The notes beneath the pieces are model-generated. The model was not told where the DNA came from. It saw only the letters and a program-made list of their open reading frames with translations, and made no database searches. The position numbers and the translations under genes are program-made. From Salsipaludibacter albus (GTDB lineage Bacteria > Actinomycetota > Nitriliruptoria > Nitriliruptorales > Nitriliruptoraceae), in assembly GCF_019798055.1 (NCBI RefSeq), contig NZ_JAHOPH010000008.1, forward strand, positions 62,001-126,000: a stretch of 64,000 bases of DNA, in the 5' to 3' direction. Shown one piece after another: positions 32,891-60,055 of this stretch. The first letter of the stretch is position 1. Each line of letters begins with the position of its first letter.

Positions 32891-33084
32891 CGGTGCACTC
32901 CTGGTCGCATCGGTCGGTCCGGACAGGTCGCGAGGCGGTGCGCGAACACGGACCGTGGCACACCGGGCGACCCCCCGGGTCCCTGCAGGCAAGCACGCCG
33001 GGTCGGGGTCAGGAGGTCGAGCGACTCAGTCGAGCCGTCGCACGCGCGGTCACCGCCCGTCGCAGGCCCCTCGGCCCCCACGGC

Positions 33085-33106
33085 TAGGGTCGCCAGCCAG
33101 GGCGAC
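33085..33106 (+). promoter_or_regulatory. -10-like element and inverted repeat upstream of the D-2-hydroxyacid dehydrogenase gene
   Basis: TAGGGT (33085-33090) could be a -10 and is followed by GTCGCC-N6-GGCGAC (33089-33106), close to the expected transcription start. The repeat may be an operator, but no convincing -35 is visible and the two elements are common words in GC-rich DNA. Confidence 0.3.
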
Positions 33107-33117
33107 GAAGGACCGGG

Positions 33118-34143
33118 ATGACGCCGAACGAGCCACGCGACGACGCACGACGCATGGTCGTGTTCTCGGCCCAGCGCTACGACCGGGAGGGCTTCGGCGC
33201 GGTCGAGCACCACGGCATCGAGGTGGTCTTCCTCGACACCCGGCTCACGGCCCGGACCGCCGAGCTCGCCCGTGGCGCACCGGTCGTGTGCGCCTTCGTC
33301 AACGACGACCTGTCGGCCGACGTGCTGGAGGTGCTGGCCGAGGGCGGAACCCAGGGCGTCGCGCTGCGTTGCGCCGGGTTCAACAACGTCGACCTGGCGG
33401 CCGCCGAGCGCCTCGGGCTGCGGGTGCTGCGTGTCCCGGCCTACTCCCCCAACGCCGTCGCCGAGCACACCCTGGCACTCATCCTCGCGCTCAACCGCAA
33501 GATCCACCGGGCCTACAACCGGGTCCGCGACGGCAACTTCGCCCTGGACGGCCTCGTCGGCTTCGACCTTGCCGGCACCACCGTCGCCGTGGTGGGCACG
33601 GGCCAGATCGGCGCCATCGTCGCCCGCCTGCTGTGGCACCTGCGGTGCCGGGTCCTGTGCGTCGACCCCTACCGCCACGACCACCTGCTGGAACTCGGCG
33701 CGGAGTACGTGTCGTGGGAGCAGGCCTGTGCGCAGGCCGACATCATCACCCTGAACTGCCCGCTCACCGACGACACCCACCACCTCGTGGACGCGGCCGC
33801 GGTGGACACGATGCGTGACGGCGTCATGCTGGTCAACACCGGTCGTGGACCGCTGGTGGACACCGACGCCGTGATCGAAGGGCTCAAGTCCGGTCGGATC
33901 GGCTCGCTGGCACTGGACGTCTACGAGGAGGAGGCGGACCTGTTCTTCACCGATCGCAGCGACGAGATCATCGACGACGACCGGTTCGCACGGCTGCTGA
34001 CGTTCCCCAACGTGCTGATCACCGCCCACCAGGCGTTCCTGACCCGCGAGGCACTCGACGCCATCGCCCGCACCACGCTGGCCAACGCCGTCGCCATCGT
34101 CACCGGGGAGCCGGCCGACACCGAGGTGTCGAGCACGACCTGA
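33118..34143 (+). CDS. D-2-hydroxyacid dehydrogenase, D-lactate dehydrogenase-like
   Basis: The 341-residue protein has the NAD-binding VVGTGQIGAIVARLL (about residues 158-172) and the catalytic set of the family: Arg in NTGRGPLVD (about 242), Glu in DVYEEEADLFF (about 270) and His in ITAHQAFLT (about 304). The sequence VFSAQRYDREGF at the start and DVYEEEADLFF place it with fermentative D-lactate dehydrogenases (LdhA) rather than phosphoglycerate dehydrogenases. It would interconvert pyruvate and D-lactate with NAD(H). A GAAGGA ribosome site lies just upstream. It is divergent from the EEP-family gene. Confidence 0.88.
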   Translation: MTPNEPRDDARRMVVFSAQRYDREGFGAVEHHGIEVVFLDTRLTARTAELARGAPVVCAFVNDDLSADVLEVLAEGGTQGVALRCAGFNNVDLAAAERLGLRVLRVPAYSPNAVAEHTLALILALNRKIHRAYNRVRDGNFALDGLVGFDLAGTTVAVVGTGQIGAIVARLLWHLRCRVLCVDPYRHDHLLELGAEYVSWEQACAQADIITLNCPLTDDTHHLVDAAAVDTMRDGVMLVNTGRGPLVDTDAVIEGLKSGRIGSLALDVYEEEADLFFTDRSDEIIDDDRFARLLTFPNVLITAHQAFLTREALDAIARTTLANAVAIVTGEPADTEVSSTT

Positions 34144-34188
34144 GCGCGTGGCACGACGACGGCCAGCGCACGTCCCGGCAGGCGCCCC

Positions 34189-34217
34189 TTGACATCCGGG
34201 GGTCGCTCGGGCATGGT
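34189..34217 (+). promoter_or_regulatory. Promoter of the leader/ABC exporter transcript
   Basis: TTGACA (34189-34194) is a perfect -35 hexamer and CATGGT (34212-34217) lies 17 bp downstream as a -10. It starts a ~220-base leader that contains a short ORF and a terminator before the ABC genes. Confidence 0.65.
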
Positions 34218-34271
34218 CACCGGACCGCGATCTGCCTGGTCGCGGGAAGGACCACGACCACGGAGGGCTCC

Positions 34272-34334
34272 ATGAAGACGCGCCGCCCGATCGCCGCGCC
34301 CGTCTTCGGGGCCCGTCCGCGTGCCGTCGTGTAG
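34272..34334 (+). CDS. Leader peptide of the ABC exporter operon
   Basis: An ATG preceded by GGAGG (spacing 5-6) opens a 20-codon ORF, MKTRRPIAAPVFGARPRAVV, ending in TAG 21 bases before a terminator hairpin. Its codons for Gly-Ala-Arg (ggcccg, 34310-34315) can pair with the 5' arm of that hairpin (cgggcc, 34355-34360). Its own ribosome site (acggagg, 34260-34266) can pair with cctccgt at 34344-34350. These are the elements expected for ribosome-mediated attenuation: a ribosome slowed early in the leader would let the antiterminator form. The ORF is too short to identify by homology. Confidence 0.6.
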   Translation: MKTRRPIAAPVFGARPRAVV

Positions 34335-34355
34335 CCACGACCACCTCCGTCACGC

Positions 34356-34385
34356 GGGCCGCCCCATCGGGGTGGCCCTTCTTCG
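34356..34385 (+). terminator. Intrinsic terminator/attenuator before the ABC exporter
   Basis: gggccgcccc (34356-34365) pairs with ggggtggccc (34369-34378) over 10 bp with one G-U, loop atc, followed by TTCTTCGT. It is 60 bp upstream of the ABC gene start and downstream of the leader ORF, so it would stop transcription before the exporter unless an alternative structure forms. It is one of the few sites in this window with a T-rich tail. Confidence 0.72.
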
Positions 34386-34444
34386 TGTCCCCCTTCCCGC
34401 ACCATCCTCGCCCACCACGGGCGACCGACCACCAGGCGACCACC

Positions 34445-36217
34445 ATGATCCCGGTCCGGGCGTACCTCGCCCTCCTGACGACCCACCTGCGCGAGCATCG
34501 TGCCCGCATGGCGCTGCTCGCCGTGCTCGTGCTCGGCGACATCGCGGTGCAACTCGCGATCCCGCAGGTCGTGCGCACGATCATCGACGACGCGCTGGCC
34601 GGCACGGCCACCGACCGCCTGGTCTGGCTGGCCGGCATGGTCGTGCTCGCCGCGCTCGCCCACATGGGCCTGGCCGTGGCAGCGACCCGGGTGGCAGAGG
34701 AGGTCGGCTGGCGGGCGACCAACGACCTGCGCGCGGACCTCGCCGACCACGTCCTCCACCTCGACCTCGGCTTCCACAAGCAGCACCCCCCGGGTGAGCT
34801 GCTCGAGCGGGTCGACGGCGACGTCACCGCCCTGTCGAACTTCTTCTCGGCGATGGTCGTCAAGGTCGTGGGCAACGGCGTGCTGATCGCGGGCATCGTC
34901 GTGTTGCTCCTGCGCGAGTCCTGGCTCGTCGGGGTGACCCTCGGCGTCCTGGTCGGCCTCGGCATCCTCGCGATGGGCCGGCTGCACGCCATCGCCGTGC
35001 CCTGGTGGCGACGCCAGCGCGCGGTCGCGGCCGAGACCTTCGGCCAGCTCGGGGAGCAGGTCGACGGCACCGAGGACATCGCCGGCAACGGCGGCGGCCG
35101 CTACATGCAGGAGCGGTTCGCCGACCAACTGCGCACCTGGATGCCCCTGCACGTCCGTGGCTGGATGGGCTGGGCACTGATGTGGGGCACCAGCGAGGTG
35201 CTCCAGGTGCTCCTGCTGGTCGCGGTGTTCGTGCTGGGCGCCTGGCAGCTCGACGTCGGGACGATGACCGTGGGCACGGTCTACCTCGTCCTGAACTACG
35301 CCGAGATGGTCGGCCACCCGCTGCACGAGATCCGTGAGCAGATGCAGGACCTGCAGAAGGCCGGGGCCTCGATCGCCCGGGTCGAGGACCTGCTGGCGAC
35401 TCCGACCGCCCTGCCACCTGCCGGGACCACCCCCCTGCCCACCGGGCCGCTGGGCCTGTCGCTGACCGGTGTGGGCTTCGCCTACCACGACGCCCGTCCG
35501 GACGATGGGACGGAGCCGAAGGGCGACGCCCCGCGGGTGCTCCACGACATCGACCTGGAGGTGCCGGCCGGACGGGTGCTGGGCATCGTCGGCCGGACCG
35601 GGTCGGGCAAGTCGACGCTCGCCCGGCTCGTGACCCGGCTGTACGACCCCGACACCGGCCACGTCCGCGTCGGCGGGGTCGAGACGGCCGAGGCCGCGGA
35701 CCTGCGCGACCGGGTGGCCATGGTCACCCAGGACGTGCAACTGTTCCGGGCGACGGTCCGCGACAACCTGACCTTCTTCGACCCCTCGATCGACGACGCC
35801 CGGCTCGTCGAGGCCGTCGCCACCCTCGGTCTGGACGACTGGCTGGCGACCCTGCCCGACGGGCTCGACACCCGGCTGGGCGGCGACGGCGTGGGCGTGT
35901 CCGCGGGCCAGGCCCAGCTGCTGGCCTTCACCCGGGTGTTCCTGCGCGACCCGGGGCTGGTCGTGCTCGACGAAGCCTCGTCGCGACTCGACCCGGCCAC
36001 CGAGGCGTGGCTGGAACGGGCCGTCGACGGGCTGTTGCGCGACCGCACCGGTGTCATCATCGCCCACCGGCTGGGAACGCTCGAACGGGTCGACGACGTG
36101 CTGGTGATGGCCGACGGCCGCGTGGTCGAGCACGGTCCCCGCGAGCGGCTGCGTGCCGACCGTGACAGCCGCTACGCCCACCTGCTGGCAACCGGCCTCG
36201 AGGAGGTGCTGACATGA
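34445..36217 (+). CDS. ABC exporter half-transporter, subunit A
   Basis: The 590-residue protein has an N-terminal six-helix ABC exporter domain (about residues 1-315) and a C-terminal ATPase domain: Walker A GRTGSGKST (about 387), signature VSAGQAQLLAF (about 485), Walker B LVVLDEASSRLD (about 505) with the catalytic glutamate, and H-loop IIAHRLGTL. The signature is non-canonical (VSAGQ instead of LSGGQ), which matches the degenerate Walker B of subunit B. Drug and lipid exporters are commonly of this heterodimeric type. The leader ORF and terminator upstream suggest antibiotic-responsive expression. Its stop overlaps the next start (ATGA). Confidence 0.9.
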   Translation: MIPVRAYLALLTTHLREHRARMALLAVLVLGDIAVQLAIPQVVRTIIDDALAGTATDRLVWLAGMVVLAALAHMGLAVAATRVAEEVGWRATNDLRADLADHVLHLDLGFHKQHPPGELLERVDGDVTALSNFFSAMVVKVVGNGVLIAGIVVLLLRESWLVGVTLGVLVGLGILAMGRLHAIAVPWWRRQRAVAAETFGQLGEQVDGTEDIAGNGGGRYMQERFADQLRTWMPLHVRGWMGWALMWGTSEVLQVLLLVAVFVLGAWQLDVGTMTVGTVYLVLNYAEMVGHPLHEIREQMQDLQKAGASIARVEDLLATPTALPPAGTTPLPTGPLGLSLTGVGFAYHDARPDDGTEPKGDAPRVLHDIDLEVPAGRVLGIVGRTGSGKSTLARLVTRLYDPDTGHVRVGGVETAEAADLRDRVAMVTQDVQLFRATVRDNLTFFDPSIDDARLVEAVATLGLDDWLATLPDGLDTRLGGDGVGVSAGQAQLLAFTRVFLRDPGLVVLDEASSRLDPATEAWLERAVDGLLRDRTGVIIAHRLGTLERVDDVLVMADGRVVEHGPRERLRADRDSRYAHLLATGLEEVLT

Positions 36218-38028
36218 CCACGACCACCCATGCACGCGGACCCGATGCCACCACGACCGCTGGCGGGCTACGCCCCTTGCTGCGCCTGATGGCGAACCAG
36301 CCCGTGCGCTACCCGATCAGCCTGGCCGTGTGGACCCTGAACTGGACCTGGCCGGTGATGATCGGGGTGATCGCCCAGCAGTACTTCGACGGGCTCGACG
36401 GCACCAGCGCCGACCAGGCGGGCTGGACCCTGGTGACCGTGGTGATCGCGCTGGGCGCGTACCTGCTGGTACGGCTGGCGGGGATCTTCTTCGGCATGTG
36501 GTGGCACGCCCGGCTGCTGTTCCGGGCCGGTGCCGGCATGCAGCGCTCCATGCTGCGCCGCATCTTCGCCCTGCCCGGGGCCCGCCCGGTGCGGGAGTCC
36601 CCCGGCGAGGTCGTCAGCCGGTTCCGCGACGACGTCGAACACACCACCGAGGCGCTCGACCTGTCCGTGGACTTCACCGGGTCGATCGTGTCGGCCACGG
36701 TGTCGTTCGTGCTGCTCGCGCGGATCGATCCGGTACTGGCGATGGTGGCCTTCGCACCGATGGTCGTGGTGCTGCTGGTCGTGTGGACGTTGGCCAACCG
36801 GATCCGGCGGTACCGCGAGTCGGCTCGCGAGACCACCGAGGCCGTCGCGGGATTCCTGGGCGAGACCCTGTCGGCCACGCAGTCGATCAAGGTCAACGGC
36901 GCCGAGCGCCCGGTGCTGGACCGGTTCGCCCGGCTCAACGACCGGCGTCGCGTGATGATGGTGCGGGACCGCACGCTGACCGCGGCGACCGACGCCATGG
37001 GCCAGACCACCGGCACGGTGGGCACGGGCCTGGTGCTGCTGTTGGCAGCCGGTTCCCTGGCCCGGGGTGGCGCGGCCGGGCTGAGCGTGGGCGACTTCGC
37101 CCTGTTCGGCATCCTGCTGGCGCACACCTCGTTCGCGGCGTTCTTCATCGGGACCTTCCTCGCCCGGATCCGCCAGGCCGGGGTCTCCTTCGACCGCATG
37201 GTGGACCTGATGGACGGGTCGACCTGGCGGGACCTGACCGTGCACTCCGAGCTGGAGGAGTCCCTGCCCGTCCCGACCGCGCCAGCCACGCGGGTCGGCG
37301 TCGTCGACCGGGTCGACGCGCCGCTGCTGGCGGTCCGAGGCCTGACCCACGTCCATCCCGATGCCGCCGGCGGCATCCACGACGTGGACCTGCAGGTCGA
37401 GCGCGGGCAACTGGTCGTGGTGACCGGTCGGGTCGGCGCCGGCAAGACCACGCTGCTGCAGACCGTGCTGGGGCTCCTGCCGGCCGAGCGTGGCACGATC
37501 GCCTGGCACGGTCGCACGGTCGACGACCCGGCCCGGTTCATGGTGCCGCCGGTGGCGGCGTACACCCCACAGGTCCCCCGGTTGTTCTCGATGGCACTGC
37601 GCGACAACCTCCTGATGGGGACCGACGGCGACGACGAGCGACTGTGGGCGGCCATGGACACCGCCACGATGACCCGGGACCTGGCCACGATGCCCGACGG
37701 GCTGGACACCATGGTGGGGCCCCGCGGCATGCGCCTGTCGGGCGGCCAGGTCCAGCGGTCGGCCGCGGCCCGCATGCTCGTGCGGGGCGCGGAACTGGTC
37801 GTCTTCGACGACCTGTCGTCGGCGCTGGACGTCGAGACCGAGGCCGCGCTGTGGGCGCGGCTGTTCGACGTGGACGAGCCGGCAACGGCCCTGGTGGTGT
37901 CGCACCGGCGTCCCGCACTGGCCCGGGCCGACCACGTGGTCGTGCTGGAGGCCGGCCGGGTCGTCGCACGTGGCACCGCGGCCGAGCTGCGCCGGACCTC
38001 CGCGGCCTTCCGCGAACTCTGGGGCTGA
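36214..38028 (+). CDS. ABC exporter half-transporter, subunit B
   Basis: The 604-residue protein has an exporter membrane domain followed by an ATPase domain with Walker A GRVGAGKTT (about residue 406), canonical signature LSGGQVQRSAA (about 508) and Walker B LVVFDDLSSALD in which Asp replaces the catalytic Glu. So one composite ATP site (Walker B of subunit A with the signature of subunit B) is complete and the other is degenerate, as in known heterodimeric multidrug exporters. It overlaps subunit A by 4 bp. An inverted-repeat element starts 7 bp after its stop. The cargo is unknown. Confidence 0.9.
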   Translation: MTTTTHARGPDATTTAGGLRPLLRLMANQPVRYPISLAVWTLNWTWPVMIGVIAQQYFDGLDGTSADQAGWTLVTVVIALGAYLLVRLAGIFFGMWWHARLLFRAGAGMQRSMLRRIFALPGARPVRESPGEVVSRFRDDVEHTTEALDLSVDFTGSIVSATVSFVLLARIDPVLAMVAFAPMVVVLLVVWTLANRIRRYRESARETTEAVAGFLGETLSATQSIKVNGAERPVLDRFARLNDRRRVMMVRDRTLTAATDAMGQTTGTVGTGLVLLLAAGSLARGGAAGLSVGDFALFGILLAHTSFAAFFIGTFLARIRQAGVSFDRMVDLMDGSTWRDLTVHSELEESLPVPTAPATRVGVVDRVDAPLLAVRGLTHVHPDAAGGIHDVDLQVERGQLVVVTGRVGAGKTTLLQTVLGLLPAERGTIAWHGRTVDDPARFMVPPVAAYTPQVPRLFSMALRDNLLMGTDGDDERLWAAMDTATMTRDLATMPDGLDTMVGPRGMRLSGGQVQRSAAARMLVRGAELVVFDDLSSALDVETEAALWARLFDVDEPATALVVSHRRPALARADHVVVLEAGRVVARGTAAELRRTSAAFRELWG

Positions 38029-38094: not shown

Positions 38095-38234
38095 CCTTCG
38101 CATGGTGTCGGGGGATGGATCGGCCCCGGTGCCGCGTTGGCGGCGGCGGCGCCGGACCGACCGGGCCGGGTCACCAGCACGGTCGGCACCGGCCTCGTCG
38201 TCCCACCAGCCGCCCGCTCCCCACGAGTCCGCCC

Positions 38235-39437
38235 ATGAACTCCCGCGCGACCTCGCCGGTCCGCCCGACCGTCATCGCCGTCCTGCAGACCACGCTCGGC
38301 ATGCTCGCACCGTTCCTGCTGGGTGCGCTGGCCACGTCGATGCGGGGCGACGTCGGGATGTCGCCGGCCGACCTCGGACTGGCGGCCAGCGGCTTCTTCG
38401 GGGTGTCCGCACTGGTCTACGCGTTCGCCAACCGCCGGATCGAGTCGCTGGGCGTCCAGACCTCGACCTGGTTGGGCGTGGGGTTCGCGGTCGCCTCGCT
38501 GGTGTTGGTCGGCGTGGCCGAGAGCACGCCCGCGATCGTCGTCGCCATGGTGCTGGGTGGTCCGGGCAACGCGATCTCGCAGCTGTCGGCCAACATGCGT
38601 CTCGCCCAGGCGGTCGAGCCGACCCACCTCGGCACGGCCGTCGGCGTGAAGCAGGGCGCCGTCCCGCTGGGGACCATGCTGGCAGGGTTCGCCGTGCCCG
38701 CCATCGCCCTGACGGTCGGCTGGCGGTTCGCCTTCCTTGCGGCCCCCGTGCTGGGCCTGCCGCTGGTCGTCGCCTCCCTGTCCCGGCGTGGCCGCTCGTC
38801 GGCCCGGGCGACCGCCCGGCCACCCCGCGGTGTGCTGGCGAGCCGTCGTGGCTCGCTGTGGCTGCTGGCCGCAGCCGCCGGACTGGCGACCGCGGCGGGC
38901 CAGTCGTCGTCGGTGTTCTACGTCGACGCCGTCGTCACCGCCGGCAGCCTCGAGGGCACCGCCGGGCTGCTGCTGGCACTGGGATCGGCCGTCGGTGCCG
39001 TGGCACGGATCGTGGTGGGCATCGCGGCCGACCGCCTGCCGTTCGGCCACCTGCGGGCAGTCGCCGGCGCGATGCTGCTGGCCGTGGTCGGGTTCGTCGC
39101 CCTGTCCACCCAGCCACAGGGCGCGATGCTGGCGCTGGTCACGATCCTCGCGTTCGCCGCCTCGTGGGGCTGGAACGGCCTGCTGACCTACGCCGTGATG
39201 CGGCTCAACCCCGACGCGCCGGCACAGGCGACCGGGATCACCCAGACGGGCCTGAGCGTGGGTGCCGCCCTGGGTCCGCTGGTCGCGGGACAGGTGGCGT
39301 CGCAGGCGTCCTACGACCTCGTCTGGCTGTTGTCGGCCGGGGCGCTGGCCATCGCGGGTGGGCTCACGCTGCTCGCGCGCCACGGACTCGTCCTCGACCA
39401 CGCGACGGAGCGTCCCACGGCCACCTCACCTCGCTGA
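38235..39437 (+). CDS. MFS transporter
   Basis: The 400-residue protein has about twelve hydrophobic segments in two halves, with the MFS inter-helix motif GIAADRLPFGHLR between the halves (about residues 258-270). An earlier variant (AFANRRIESLGVQ) appears after the second helix. No substrate-specific motif is evident; the general form is of small-molecule exporters or nitrate/cyanate-like permeases. The start has no strong ribosome site, but the ATG at 38235 immediately precedes the first helix. Between this gene and the ABC operon lies the inverted repeat. Confidence 0.85.
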   Translation: MNSRATSPVRPTVIAVLQTTLGMLAPFLLGALATSMRGDVGMSPADLGLAASGFFGVSALVYAFANRRIESLGVQTSTWLGVGFAVASLVLVGVAESTPAIVVAMVLGGPGNAISQLSANMRLAQAVEPTHLGTAVGVKQGAVPLGTMLAGFAVPAIALTVGWRFAFLAAPVLGLPLVVASLSRRGRSSARATARPPRGVLASRRGSLWLLAAAAGLATAAGQSSSVFYVDAVVTAGSLEGTAGLLLALGSAVGAVARIVVGIAADRLPFGHLRAVAGAMLLAVVGFVALSTQPQGAMLALVTILAFAASWGWNGLLTYAVMRLNPDAPAQATGITQTGLSVGAALGPLVAGQVASQASYDLVWLLSAGALAIAGGLTLLARHGLVLDHATERPTATSPR

Positions 39438-56132: not shown

Positions 56133-56279
56133 GGCCTCACCCCGTGGGTGGTCGATGCCGACCGTGTGACGACTCGGGCGCCCGGGTCGGCTGGCGTCGG
56201 TGCGTGGTCGGCGACGGGACCACGCCCCGCCGGCGAGCAGGCTACTGGTGGCCGGATCGGCCGGGCACCGCCACCGAGA

Positions 56280-58124
56280 TCAGCCGGTGGGTGCCCGCCC
56301 CGCCGTGCCGGCCTCCCACGAGTCGTACAGGTCGGCGTACACGCCGCCCGCAGCCACCAGGTCGTCGTGGTGACCGTCCTCGACCAGCCGGCCGTGGTCG
56401 AACACCAGCACGCGTTGCGAGGACTGGGCCGTCGACAGCCGGTGGGCGATGGTCACCGTGGTCCGCCCCCGGGTCAGGCCGTCCAGCGCACGACGCAGGC
56501 GGACCTCGGTGGCGGGGTCGACCGCGGAGGTGGCCTCGTCCAGCACCAGCAGTCGTGGGTCGGCGACGTAGGCCCGGGCCAGCGCGACCAGTTGGCGCTC
56601 GCCGGCCGACAACGCGCCGCCCCGGTCCCCGACCGGCGTGTCGAGTCCGTCGGGCAGTGACGCCACCCAGTCGGCCAGGCCGAGGTCGTCGAGCGCGCTC
56701 CACAACTGGTCGGAGGTGGCGTCCGGCTCGCCCTGCAGGAGGTTGTCGCGCACGGTCCCGGCGAACAACGCGCCCTCCTGGGGCACCATCACGACGTGAC
56801 GGCGCAGCGATCCGAACGCGACCCGGTCGATCGGCCGGCCCTGGACCTCGACCGTGCCGGTGGACGGGTCCATCAGCCGGGTCAGGAGCTTGGCGAAGGT
56901 GGTCTTGCCCGATCCTGTCTCGCCGACGACGGCGACGTGCTGCTCGGGTGGGATGCTGACAGTGATGTCCTCCAGGACCGTGGGGCTGGACGCCTCGCGG
57001 GCGGTCTCGCCCGGCCGCGGGTAGCGGAACCCGACACTCGTGAAGGTCACGCCGACCGGTGCGTCGTCCAGCACCAGGCCGTCCTCGCCCGGGTCGGCCA
57101 CGTCCGGCGCGACGTCGAGCACGTCCAGGACCCGGCGCCAGCCGGCCACCGCGGTCTGGCCCTCGTTGACGGTCTCGGCCGCGATCTGGACCGGCTCGAC
57201 GAACAGCGAGATCAGGAACAGCATCGCGACGACCGTCCCCGGGGTCTCCGCGCCCAGGCCGACGAAGACGACGCCCGCGACGACGACCGCGGCGGTGGCG
57301 GCGCCGGAGAAGGACTCGCCGGTCCCGGAGAACAGCGCGGACAGCCGGCCGGCTCGCAGGGCGGCGTCGGTGTGGTCCTCGATCGCGTCGTCGAGCCGCT
57401 CCTGGATCGAGTGTTCGATCCCGTAGGCGCGGATCACCGGGGCGCCGACGACCACCTCGGCGAGCCTCCCGAGCAGGATCCCGAGGCGCTCGCGCACGTC
57501 GGTGTAGGCCACCGTGAGCCGGCCCTGGAACCACTTCGCGGCCAGCACGAACGGCACGAACAGGACCAGCACGACGATCGTCAGCCGCCAGGAGTAGACC
57601 AGCATCACCACCGCCGCGACGACCAGCTGGGCCGAGGCGGTCAGGAGGTTGAGGCCGCCGCGCTGCATGAACCTCGACACCTCGTCGACGTCGGAGGTCA
57701 CGCGGGCCACGAGGTTGCCACGATGCTCGCTCGCCTGGTGGAGCATGGAGAGGTCGTGGATGTGGCCGAAGGTGCGCACGCGCAGGTTGGCCAGCGCGGT
57801 CTCGACCGCCGTCGCCAACCGGATGTTCATCGCCCCGGTCGACAGGGCCGTGACCAGGACGGCCAGCGAGGCCCACAGGACCGCACGCACGACCAGTGGC
57901 AGGTCGACGGCCGTGGTGCCCGCACCGATGCCCAACCCGTTGTCGATGGTCTGCTGCACGGCGATCGGCACGACCACGCGGCCGGCCGTGGCGACCAGGG
58001 CGAGCAACACGGTCACGGTCAGCCCACGCCGGAGCTCCGGCGACAGGCGCAGCCCACGTCGGACGGTGTGCAGCGCGGAACCTGCGTCCAGGCGTTCCGT
58101 GTTCGGAGCGGTCGTGGTGCTCAT
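56280..58124 (-). CDS. ABC exporter half-transporter, second system, subunit B
   Basis: The 614-residue protein has an exporter membrane domain (about residues 30-330) and an ATPase domain with Walker A GETGSGKTT, signature LSAGERQLVAL (Gly to Ala, Gln to Glu) and Walker B LLVLDEATSAVD with the catalytic Glu. Its ATG overlaps the stop of the partner gene (ATGA). The altered signature is complemented by the degenerate Walker B of the partner, as in the 34.4-kb system, so one of the two ATP sites is expected to be inactive. Cargo unknown. Confidence 0.9.
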   Translation of the reverse strand: MSTTTAPNTERLDAGSALHTVRRGLRLSPELRRGLTVTVLLALVATAGRVVVPIAVQQTIDNGLGIGAGTTAVDLPLVVRAVLWASLAVLVTALSTGAMNIRLATAVETALANLRVRTFGHIHDLSMLHQASEHRGNLVARVTSDVDEVSRFMQRGGLNLLTASAQLVVAAVVMLVYSWRLTIVVLVLFVPFVLAAKWFQGRLTVAYTDVRERLGILLGRLAEVVVGAPVIRAYGIEHSIQERLDDAIEDHTDAALRAGRLSALFSGTGESFSGAATAAVVVAGVVFVGLGAETPGTVVAMLFLISLFVEPVQIAAETVNEGQTAVAGWRRVLDVLDVAPDVADPGEDGLVLDDAPVGVTFTSVGFRYPRPGETAREASSPTVLEDITVSIPPEQHVAVVGETGSGKTTFAKLLTRLMDPSTGTVEVQGRPIDRVAFGSLRRHVVMVPQEGALFAGTVRDNLLQGEPDATSDQLWSALDDLGLADWVASLPDGLDTPVGDRGGALSAGERQLVALARAYVADPRLLVLDEATSAVDPATEVRLRRALDGLTRGRTTVTIAHRLSTAQSSQRVLVFDHGRLVEDGHHDDLVAAGGVYADLYDSWEAGTAGRAPTG

Positions 58125-60055
58125 CGCCCCACCTCCACGCGGTCGTCGTCGCGGCCGCCGTGTCGCTCGGCCAGCTCGGACCGGTCGGTGTCGTAGGCCT
58201 CCACCAGTGCGGCGTAGTCGGGGTCGGTGGCGAGCAGCTCGTCGTGGGTGCCGCGACCGACCACCGCGCCGTCGGCGACGAAGGCGACCTCGTCGGCCAG
58301 CGCGATCGAGCCACTGCGGTAGGCCACGAGCACGACGGTCGTGTCCAGGTCGGCCGCGGCCAGCCCGGTCAGGATCGCCTGCTCGACCGTGGGGTCGACC
58401 GCGGACGTGGCGTCGTCGAGCACCAGCAGGCGGGGCCGACGCAGCAGGGCCCGGGCCAGGGCGACGCGCTGGCGCTGCCCGCCGGACAGGGATGCGCCCC
58501 GCTCCCCCACCACGGTGTCCAGCCCGTCCTCGAGCTCGTCGACGAACCGGTCGGCGGCGGCGAGCTGCACGGCCCAGTCCACCTCCTCGTCGGCGACGTC
58601 GGCACCGAGCGTGATGTTGTGGCGGATGGTGTCGTCGAACAGGAACGCGTCCTGGAAGACCAGCGTGGCGTCGGCGGCCAGGGCGTCGCGGTCCAGCGTG
58701 GTGGCGTCGACGCCGTCCAGGCGGATCGTGCCGCTGTCGGGATCGAACAGCCGCACCAGCAGCCACGTCAGGGTGGTCTTGCCACTGCCGGTCGCGCCGA
58801 CGACCGCGAGCGTGCGGCCGGGCTCGACGTGCAGGTCCAGGTCGGTCACGCCCCGTTCCGGGTCGCCGGTGTAGGCCGGCGCCACCCCGTCCTCGAGGCG
58901 GTCCGGGTCGGGAGCCGGTCGGGGGGCGCTCCCCGCGTCGTGGTCGAGGTCCTCGCGGGTGCTCGCCGGGTGCATGTAGGTGACGTCCTCGGCGTCGGCT
59001 GCGAGGGCGGCATCGGACGGCAGCCGCTCGCTGCCGTAGTGGACGCGCTCGTCGGCCTGCAGGACGTGCTGGATCCGGTCGTGGCCCACCACGGCCTGCG
59101 GGAGCTGGCCGAGCAGCCAGCCGAACGAGCGCATCGGCAGGGCGACCAGCCGGAACAGGTACGCGAAGGTGACCAGCTCGCCCGCCGTCAACACGCCCAG
59201 CTGCACCCGCCACGCGCCGACCGCGAGGACGGCCAGGATCGCGAGGTCGGGCAGCGCCTGGACCACCGGGTCGAACACGCCGCGCAGACGTCCGAGGCTG
59301 ATCAGGTGGTCGCGCAGGCGCCCGGTCTCGTCGTCGAACCGGGCGATCTCGGCGTGCTCACGACCGAGGGTCTTGACCACCAGGGCGGCGTCGAAGCTCT
59401 CGTGGGCGACCTCGGCGACATCCCCACGGGTGGACTGGGCACGTTTCGCGACGGCCCGCATGCTGCGCGAGAACCGGTGGTTGGCGATGGCAAGCAGCGG
59501 GCCCACGACGAAGCCGATGGCGGCGAGCCACGGGTCGGTGGTCACCAGCAGGACGGCCGTGATCAGCAGCATCAGGGCCGCGCCCAGCGCCATGGGGAGC
59601 GGGGCGGCCACGAAGGCGGCGGTCTCGATGTCCGAGGACGCGTTGGAGAGCAGGATCCCGGTGGGGTGGCGCCGGTGCCACGGCAACGACAGGGACAGGT
59701 AGCGCCGGGTGACGGCCCGGCGGTCGTCCCGCTGCAGTGCGTACTGGGCCACGTAGGCGCCGAGTCGCCGGCCGACGACGCCGACGGCCTTGAGCAGGGC
59801 GACCCCCAGCACGACGCCCGCACCGATCGCGATCGCCCGTGCGGTCGGGCTGGTGTCGGCGGCGGGGAGGATGAGGTCGTCGGTGATCCACCCGATCACC
59901 AGCGAGGACGCGACGGTCATCACCGCGTACAGGGCGGTCCCGATGGCCCCCCAGGCGAACCCGCGAGGTGCCTGTCGGAGCTGGAGGGCGATCAGCTGCA
60001 TGCCACGACGCAGCGACGCGGGATCGGCGTCGCGCTGCGGGGAGGATGGTGGCAC
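58121..60055 (-). CDS. ABC exporter half-transporter, second system, subunit A
   Basis: The 644-residue protein has six membrane segments (about residues 35-330), a hydrophilic linker and an ATPase domain with Walker A GATGSGKTT, canonical signature LSGGQRQRVAL and Walker B LLVLDDATSAVD, where Asp replaces the catalytic Glu. The GTG at 60055 follows GGAG by 7 bases. It is divergent from the DoxX-like gene, with a 234-bp gap. Together with the next gene it forms a second heterodimeric exporter. Confidence 0.9.
   Translation of the reverse strand: MPPSSPQRDADPASLRRGMQLIALQLRQAPRGFAWGAIGTALYAVMTVASSLVIGWITDDLILPAADTSPTARAIAIGAGVVLGVALLKAVGVVGRRLGAYVAQYALQRDDRRAVTRRYLSLSLPWHRRHPTGILLSNASSDIETAAFVAAPLPMALGAALMLLITAVLLVTTDPWLAAIGFVVGPLLAIANHRFSRSMRAVAKRAQSTRGDVAEVAHESFDAALVVKTLGREHAEIARFDDETGRLRDHLISLGRLRGVFDPVVQALPDLAILAVLAVGAWRVQLGVLTAGELVTFAYLFRLVALPMRSFGWLLGQLPQAVVGHDRIQHVLQADERVHYGSERLPSDAALAADAEDVTYMHPASTREDLDHDAGSAPRPAPDPDRLEDGVAPAYTGDPERGVTDLDLHVEPGRTLAVVGATGSGKTTLTWLLVRLFDPDSGTIRLDGVDATTLDRDALAADATLVFQDAFLFDDTIRHNITLGADVADEEVDWAVQLAAADRFVDELEDGLDTVVGERGASLSGGQRQRVALARALLRRPRLLVLDDATSAVDPTVEQAILTGLAAADLDTTVVLVAYRSGSIALADEVAFVADGAVVGRGTHDELLATDPDYAALVEAYDTDRSELAERHGGRDDDRVEVGR

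Follow-up and report, generated by a model that had tools for sequence, protein, structure and literature searches.

A ribosome-mediated transcription attenuator, to which we assign a probability of about 0.72, appears to control the heterodimeric ABC exporter found in the window (the whole 64 kb stretch of DNA that was analysed). Computation reveals the parts of the switch, their conservation among related loci, and a choice between two structures that depends on the position of the ribosome on a short leader. The features, in order along the DNA, are the following:

34189-34217, plus strand: promoter, with the -35 box TTGACA (34189-34194), a 17 bp spacer and the -10 box CATGGT (34212-34217), by direct reading
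34261-34317, plus strand: protector hairpin of the ribosome-free leader, in which the early leader pairs with about 34294-34317 and masks the 5' side of the antiterminator, by folding only
34262-34266, plus strand: Shine-Dalgarno sequence GGAGG of the leader ORF, by direct reading
34272-34334, plus strand: leader ORF of 20 codons, MKTRRPIAAPVFGARPRAVV, from ATG at 34272 to the stop codon TAG at 34332-34334
34308-34323, plus strand: antiterminator 5' strand, leader codons 13-18, by folding
34326-34341, plus strand: small hairpin inside the antiterminator, with the leader stop codon in its loop, by folding
34351-34365, plus strand: antiterminator 3' strand, overlapping the terminator 5' arm, by folding
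34356-34388, plus strand: intrinsic-terminator-like hairpin (34356-34378) and T-rich tail, by terminator scan
34445-36217, plus strand: ABC exporter half-transporter 1, with a canonical Walker B (LDE) and an atypical signature (SAGQ)
36214-38028, plus strand: ABC exporter half-transporter 2, with a canonical signature (LSGGQ) and a degenerate Walker B (FDD), overlapping gene 1 by 4 bases

The promoter TTGACA-N17-CATGGT and the 20-codon ORF with its GGAGG lie where the preliminary description had placed them, and transcription is predicted to start at about 34224. The -10 box agrees with TATAAT at three of six bases, and for this reason a strict sigma-70 scan misses the promoter in the window; the shape TTGACA-N17/18-xAxxxT is also present in related loci, where a TTGAC box 30-125 nt before the leader recurs in 37 of 42 cases (2.5 in shuffled sequences). 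A WhiB7-type promoter is presumably not favoured, given the GC-rich sequence before the -35 box. Scanning of the whole 64 kb window located the combination of leader ORF, terminator and gene once, at this locus. A further leader, MIRRTQPNTTPAALARARFRF, is named here beside the window leader. Both the transcript and the leader peptide are presumably made.

The hairpin is composed of GGGCCGCCCC-ATC-GGGGTGGCCC (34356-34378) followed by the tail TTCTTCGTGT; it starts 21 nt 3' of the leader stop codon and the exporter ATG lies 66 nt 3' of its end. It is the sole terminator detected by the scan in 33000-35500 (0.2 in shuffled sequences), and Rfam models of riboswitches, T-boxes and other families gave no match. 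The T-rich tail ascribed to it earlier is there in modest form, with T at five of eight positions; the tail is weaker in the same-genus locus L044 (GTTCGCAT) and good in the more distant loci of group A (below). Termination at this hairpin is presumably efficient, termination strength in GC-rich actinobacteria being a quantity that is not reliably computable.

Both half-transporters carry the ABC_membrane and ABC_tran domains, and the pairing of LDE/SAGQ with FDD/LSGGQ is the motif set of a predicted heterodimeric exporter with one degenerate nucleotide site, so that motifs and domains agree with the assignment first made for the gene pair behind the hairpin. PADLOC matches of the exporter were generic ATPase matches and were set aside. 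An MFS-transporter-like gene follows the pair on the plus strand (about 38200-39437) and may belong to the operon. The window also holds a second ABC exporter gene pair on the minus strand (56242-60055), before which the scan for a leader plus terminator did not find the combination.

Folding of the leader RNA brought out an antiterminator that uses leader codons and is mutually exclusive with the terminator. Its best register joins 34308-34312 to 34361-34365 and 34315-34323 to 34351-34359 around the small stop-codon hairpin, with an energy of -31.2 kcal/mol in the window and -30.0 kcal/mol in the same register of the same-genus relative; the value is matched by 1.4% (window) and 1.6% (relative) of shuffled sequences and exceeds that of the terminator hairpin (about -21 kcal/mol). 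The best leader partner of the terminator 5' arm is codons 12-20 or so in the window and the relative, and codons 11-17 in group A. Two shorter pairings had been proposed before. The complementarity of ggcccg (34310-34315) with cgggcc (34355-34360) is real and forms only part of the longer and better register 34308-34323:34351-34365. The leader ribosome site acggagg (34260-34266) is likewise complementary to cctccgt (34344-34350), but this pairing has no counterpart in the same-genus relative; it was rejected as a functional element and is probably incidental.

For the switch analysis, a ribosome was set on each leader codon in turn and the RNA beyond it was folded, under the assumptions of equilibrium folding and of a chosen ribosome edge. 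With no ribosome on the RNA, the terminator forms with a probability of 1.00 in the window and 0.95 in the relative. A ribosome within codons 1-8 lowers this probability to as little as 0.00 in the window, 0.06 in the relative and 0.01-0.03 in the group A loci L107 and L048, and a ribosome at codon 9 or beyond restores it to at least 0.94 in the window and the relative. The switch score was reached by 4 of 500 shuffled leaders for the window and 3 of 500 for the relative; with other assumed ribosome edges the switch is still seen and the best codon moves. That codon is 1-2 and 6-8 in the window versus 4-5 in L044. Before the terminator 3' arm is made, a ribosome at codons 1-8 of the window or relative leader allows the RNA to adopt a structure with an energy of -30 to -39 kcal/mol, in which the terminator 5' arm is in most cases paired already; a ribosome at codon 12 abolishes this structure. 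The folding, together with the comparative evidence, favours the earlier proposal, in which slow translation of the first half of the leader makes an antiterminator available.

In the mechanism that we propose, RNA polymerase would start near 34224. If no ribosome is on the leader, the leader would fold on itself and the terminator at 34356 would form; if a ribosome translates freely, it would reach the stop codon, cover the antiterminator 5' strand and likewise permit termination. A ribosome stopped at about codons 1-8 would break the protector hairpin and expose codons 13-18, which would capture the terminator 5' arm in the long antiterminator before the 3' arm is made, and polymerase would then continue into the exporter genes. 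Mere loss of translation would not be enough: a leader with no ribosome pairs internally and lets the terminator form, so that stalling on the leader is the predicted trigger.

The search for the same leader in related genomes, as suggested in the preliminary description, covered both close and more distant loci. The same-genus comparison consists of one other genome (loci L002/L044), whose exporter is 73% identical to that of the window. This relative keeps the promoter box, the Shine-Dalgarno sequence and the hairpin, with the terminator arm GGGCCGCCCC present in L002; its leader likewise has 20 codons but another sequence (MKTPFIVVAPSRAACLRAFR). Thirteen of the 14 main-helix antiterminator pairs are kept in L002, two of them with one-sided changes, and the small stop-codon hairpin exists in both species with different sequences.

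The next orthologues are 51-60% identical and come mostly from Acidimicrobiia-type MAGs. A leader was counted where an ORF 7-25 codons long had a ribosome site matching at 5 or more bases and a stop codon 70-145 nt before the exporter. By this definition, 40 of the 51 orthologues with enough upstream sequence possess one, compared with 0.8 (maximum 3) in shuffled sequences and a rate of 2.5% in 319 control genes, a background taken from the same related loci; the compared loci share kinship, so these counts are not independent events, and nearly all the compared genomes, including every one examined closely, are MAGs. In the exporter tree, the window and its relative are neighbours of leader groups A, B and C (support 100), and the surrounding clade has a leader in nearly every assessable member (the leaderless members are few, and L045 and L060 among them end at a contig edge). 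No comparable leader was seen before the orthologues in Chloroflexota and Paenibacillaceae. A U-tailed terminator between leader and exporter was found for 10 of 54 leaders (0.6 in shuffled sequences). Nine of these ten belong to the window and the eight group A loci and come with an analysed antiterminator; the tenth (L058) is weak. The other 44 leader-bearing orthologues have no U-tailed terminator, hence many must use another output step.

Group A comprises eight Acidimicrobiia-type loci (L046-L049, L053, L107, L129 and L130) that share a common design with the window: in all nine, the U-tailed terminator is 21-25 nt after the leader stop codon, with a better U-tract in group A. The group A antiterminator pairs GGCGGC-CUCGC with GCGAG-NN-GCCGCC, and in the switch folding six of the eight loci score above 96% or more of 60 shuffled leaders, L046 and L049 being weak. 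Its pairs are nearly invariant, hence they offer no covariation signal to score. The group A covariance model (R1) gave strong matches only in its eight carrier genomes, always before this exporter, and missed both the window and its relative; therefore the link between the window and group A is drawn from layout and the exporter tree, not from sequence. A joint DNA alignment of the window with group A was misaligned and was left out of the evidence. Covariation was seen in other groups. A helix between the leader and downstream RNA in group F has both-sided changes in 4 cells, compared with 1.6 on average after shuffling, which supports the pairing, and two hairpins are kept in group E (L073, L078, L079, L081, L084 and L178), with 10 both-sided cells against 3.6. 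The group E leaders read xxRLLPxxAAxRVHxAA followed by the stop codon; the hairpin after them changes strongly in sequence, keeps its pairing and has no U-tail, and is a putative output different from the terminator type. In group D (L033-L035, L059, L064, L067, L071, L072, L080, L088 and L090) the leaders have 9-11 codons and end in Arg (e.g. MFRNPTTAR and stop), and a variable GC-rich hairpin lies directly before the exporter ribosome site. The leaders thus appear to be combined with several kinds of output structure.

In Bacillus subtilis, the heterodimeric multidrug ABC exporter of the bmrB-bmrCD system is under transcriptional attenuation mediated by the ribosome; this system is induced by lincomycin, erythromycin and chloramphenicol and was described as the first leader-peptide transcription attenuation of a multidrug ABC exporter (PMC4191407). 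The window resembles that system in having a short ORF between the promoter and two exporter genes, a predicted terminator, antiterminator and anti-antiterminator with a predicted response to slowed leader translation, and an ABC exporter whose two genes encode a heterodimer with one degenerate nucleotide site. It differs in lineage, which is distant, apparently in leader sequence, and in leader length and terminator position: BmrB has 53 codons versus 20 in the window leader, and the bmrB terminator lies inside the coding region of bmrB, whose end is 119 bp from bmrC, whereas the window hairpin begins 21 nt past the stop codon (PMC4191407). In addition, bmrCD regulation was established by experiment, and that of the window is predicted by computation. 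The streptococcal attenuators of mef(E)/mel (msrD) have an experimentally observed macrolide response and a short leader ORF with transcription attenuation before drug efflux/protection genes; the genes, lineage and leader are other than those of the window (PMC4335068, PMC10314930). The ABCF protein LmrC of Streptomyces lincolnensis offers another case of ribosome-mediated antibiotic sensing in an actinobacterium, but LmrC is an ABC-F ATPase and the window encodes an exporter (PMC8546547). As in trp-type attenuators, four segments form a 1:2 protector, a 2:3 antiterminator and a 3:4 terminator, but there is no regulatory codon run and no biosynthetic gene. The literature searched, a limited paper collection, contained no account of leaders of this kind from Acidimicrobiia or Nitriliruptoria. 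We consider the element a real and apparently undescribed attenuator of a known kind, new in leader sequence and lineage.

Alternative readings were weighed against this attenuator. The leader ribosome might act on translation, by altering access to the exporter start region, with the hairpin at 34356 not an efficient terminator. Translational attenuation has precedents in ermC-type systems, and the modest or absent U-tails of most orthologues and the covarying structures without U-tails of groups E and F would fit it; we judge it unlikely for the window, however, where the hairpin is followed by a T-rich tail, 66 nt separate its end from the start codon, the folded region stops short of the exporter ribosome site, and the analogous element of group A has a clear U-tailed terminator. 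Control by Rho, in which leader translation would shield a Rho-loading site that is exposed by a stall or by loss of translation, draws on the C-rich stretches after the leader in several groups and on the frequent lack of U-tails, but it leaves the mutually exclusive hairpins and the terminator of the window and group A unexplained and is regarded as highly improbable.

The early codons raise the question of amino-acid sensing, i.e., a ribosome stalled by uncharged tRNA at early Arg or Pro codons. Of the 54 leaders, 30 carry Arg at codon 3 (against 15% overall), mostly as AGG, and 19 carry Pro at codon 7; the window leader has R4, R5 and P6. Such an attenuator for arginine or proline is nevertheless very unlikely: unlike trp or his leaders, these have no run of one codon, the genes under control code for exporters and not for biosynthesis, and the motif is absent in about half of the leaders. 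Finally, a chance ORF might precede the ordinary terminator of the upstream dehydrogenase gene, which ends at 34143, and strong hairpins are common in GC-rich DNA. This coincidence is scarcely credible in the face of the enrichment of the TTGAC box, the U-tailed terminator and above all the leader ORF, which contradicts it, of the promoter sitting between the upstream gene and the hairpin, and of a block that is kept in the relative although the sequence upstream of it differs from that of the window.

Returning to the attenuator reading, the predicted stall region overlaps Arg codon 3 and Pro codon 7, and these codons are a lead to the signal, not evidence of it. AGG may be a rare codon in these genomes. 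Counts by codon position gave no clear purifying selection on the leader peptide in any group, so the argument rests on the conserved frame, length and layout and not on the peptide. By analogy with bmrB-bmrCD (PMC4191407), antibiotics would be the inducers, and the likely signal would be slowing of the ribosome by an inhibitor which the pump exports. More tentatively, the leaders might be arrest peptides of a new family, drug-dependent and acting very early, on which inhibitor-bound ribosomes would stop in the first two to eight codons (M-x-R in more than half), the same sensing front end being placed on different output hairpins in Acidimicrobiia and Nitriliruptoria; we hold this to be possible and rather doubtful.

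The same arrangement before this pump in dozens of uncultured Actinomycetota genomes probably marks a dedicated alarm for slowed protein synthesis. The bmrCD-type logic would then recur before one exporter clade, where leader sequences change fast and the layout stays constant. If this is true, it becomes testable which ribosome inhibitors these uncultured bacteria encounter and export, and the leaders form a natural series of variants that could relate individual early codons to the drugs under which they cause stalling.

Other exporters of the window's class show several upstream arrangements. Four distant ones (L003, L004, L005 and L031; 46-48% identity), which belong to another family of that class on a separate tree branch, are likewise preceded by a short ORF and a promoter-like box, and others (L006-L013) start close after a promoter-like box, apparently with no leader. 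Among the genomes searched, the exporter subfamily of the window occurs in only one genus of its class, and in the exporter tree the window exporter nests among Acidimicrobiia-type sequences; taken together, the two observations suggest horizontal transfer of the exporter with its leader.
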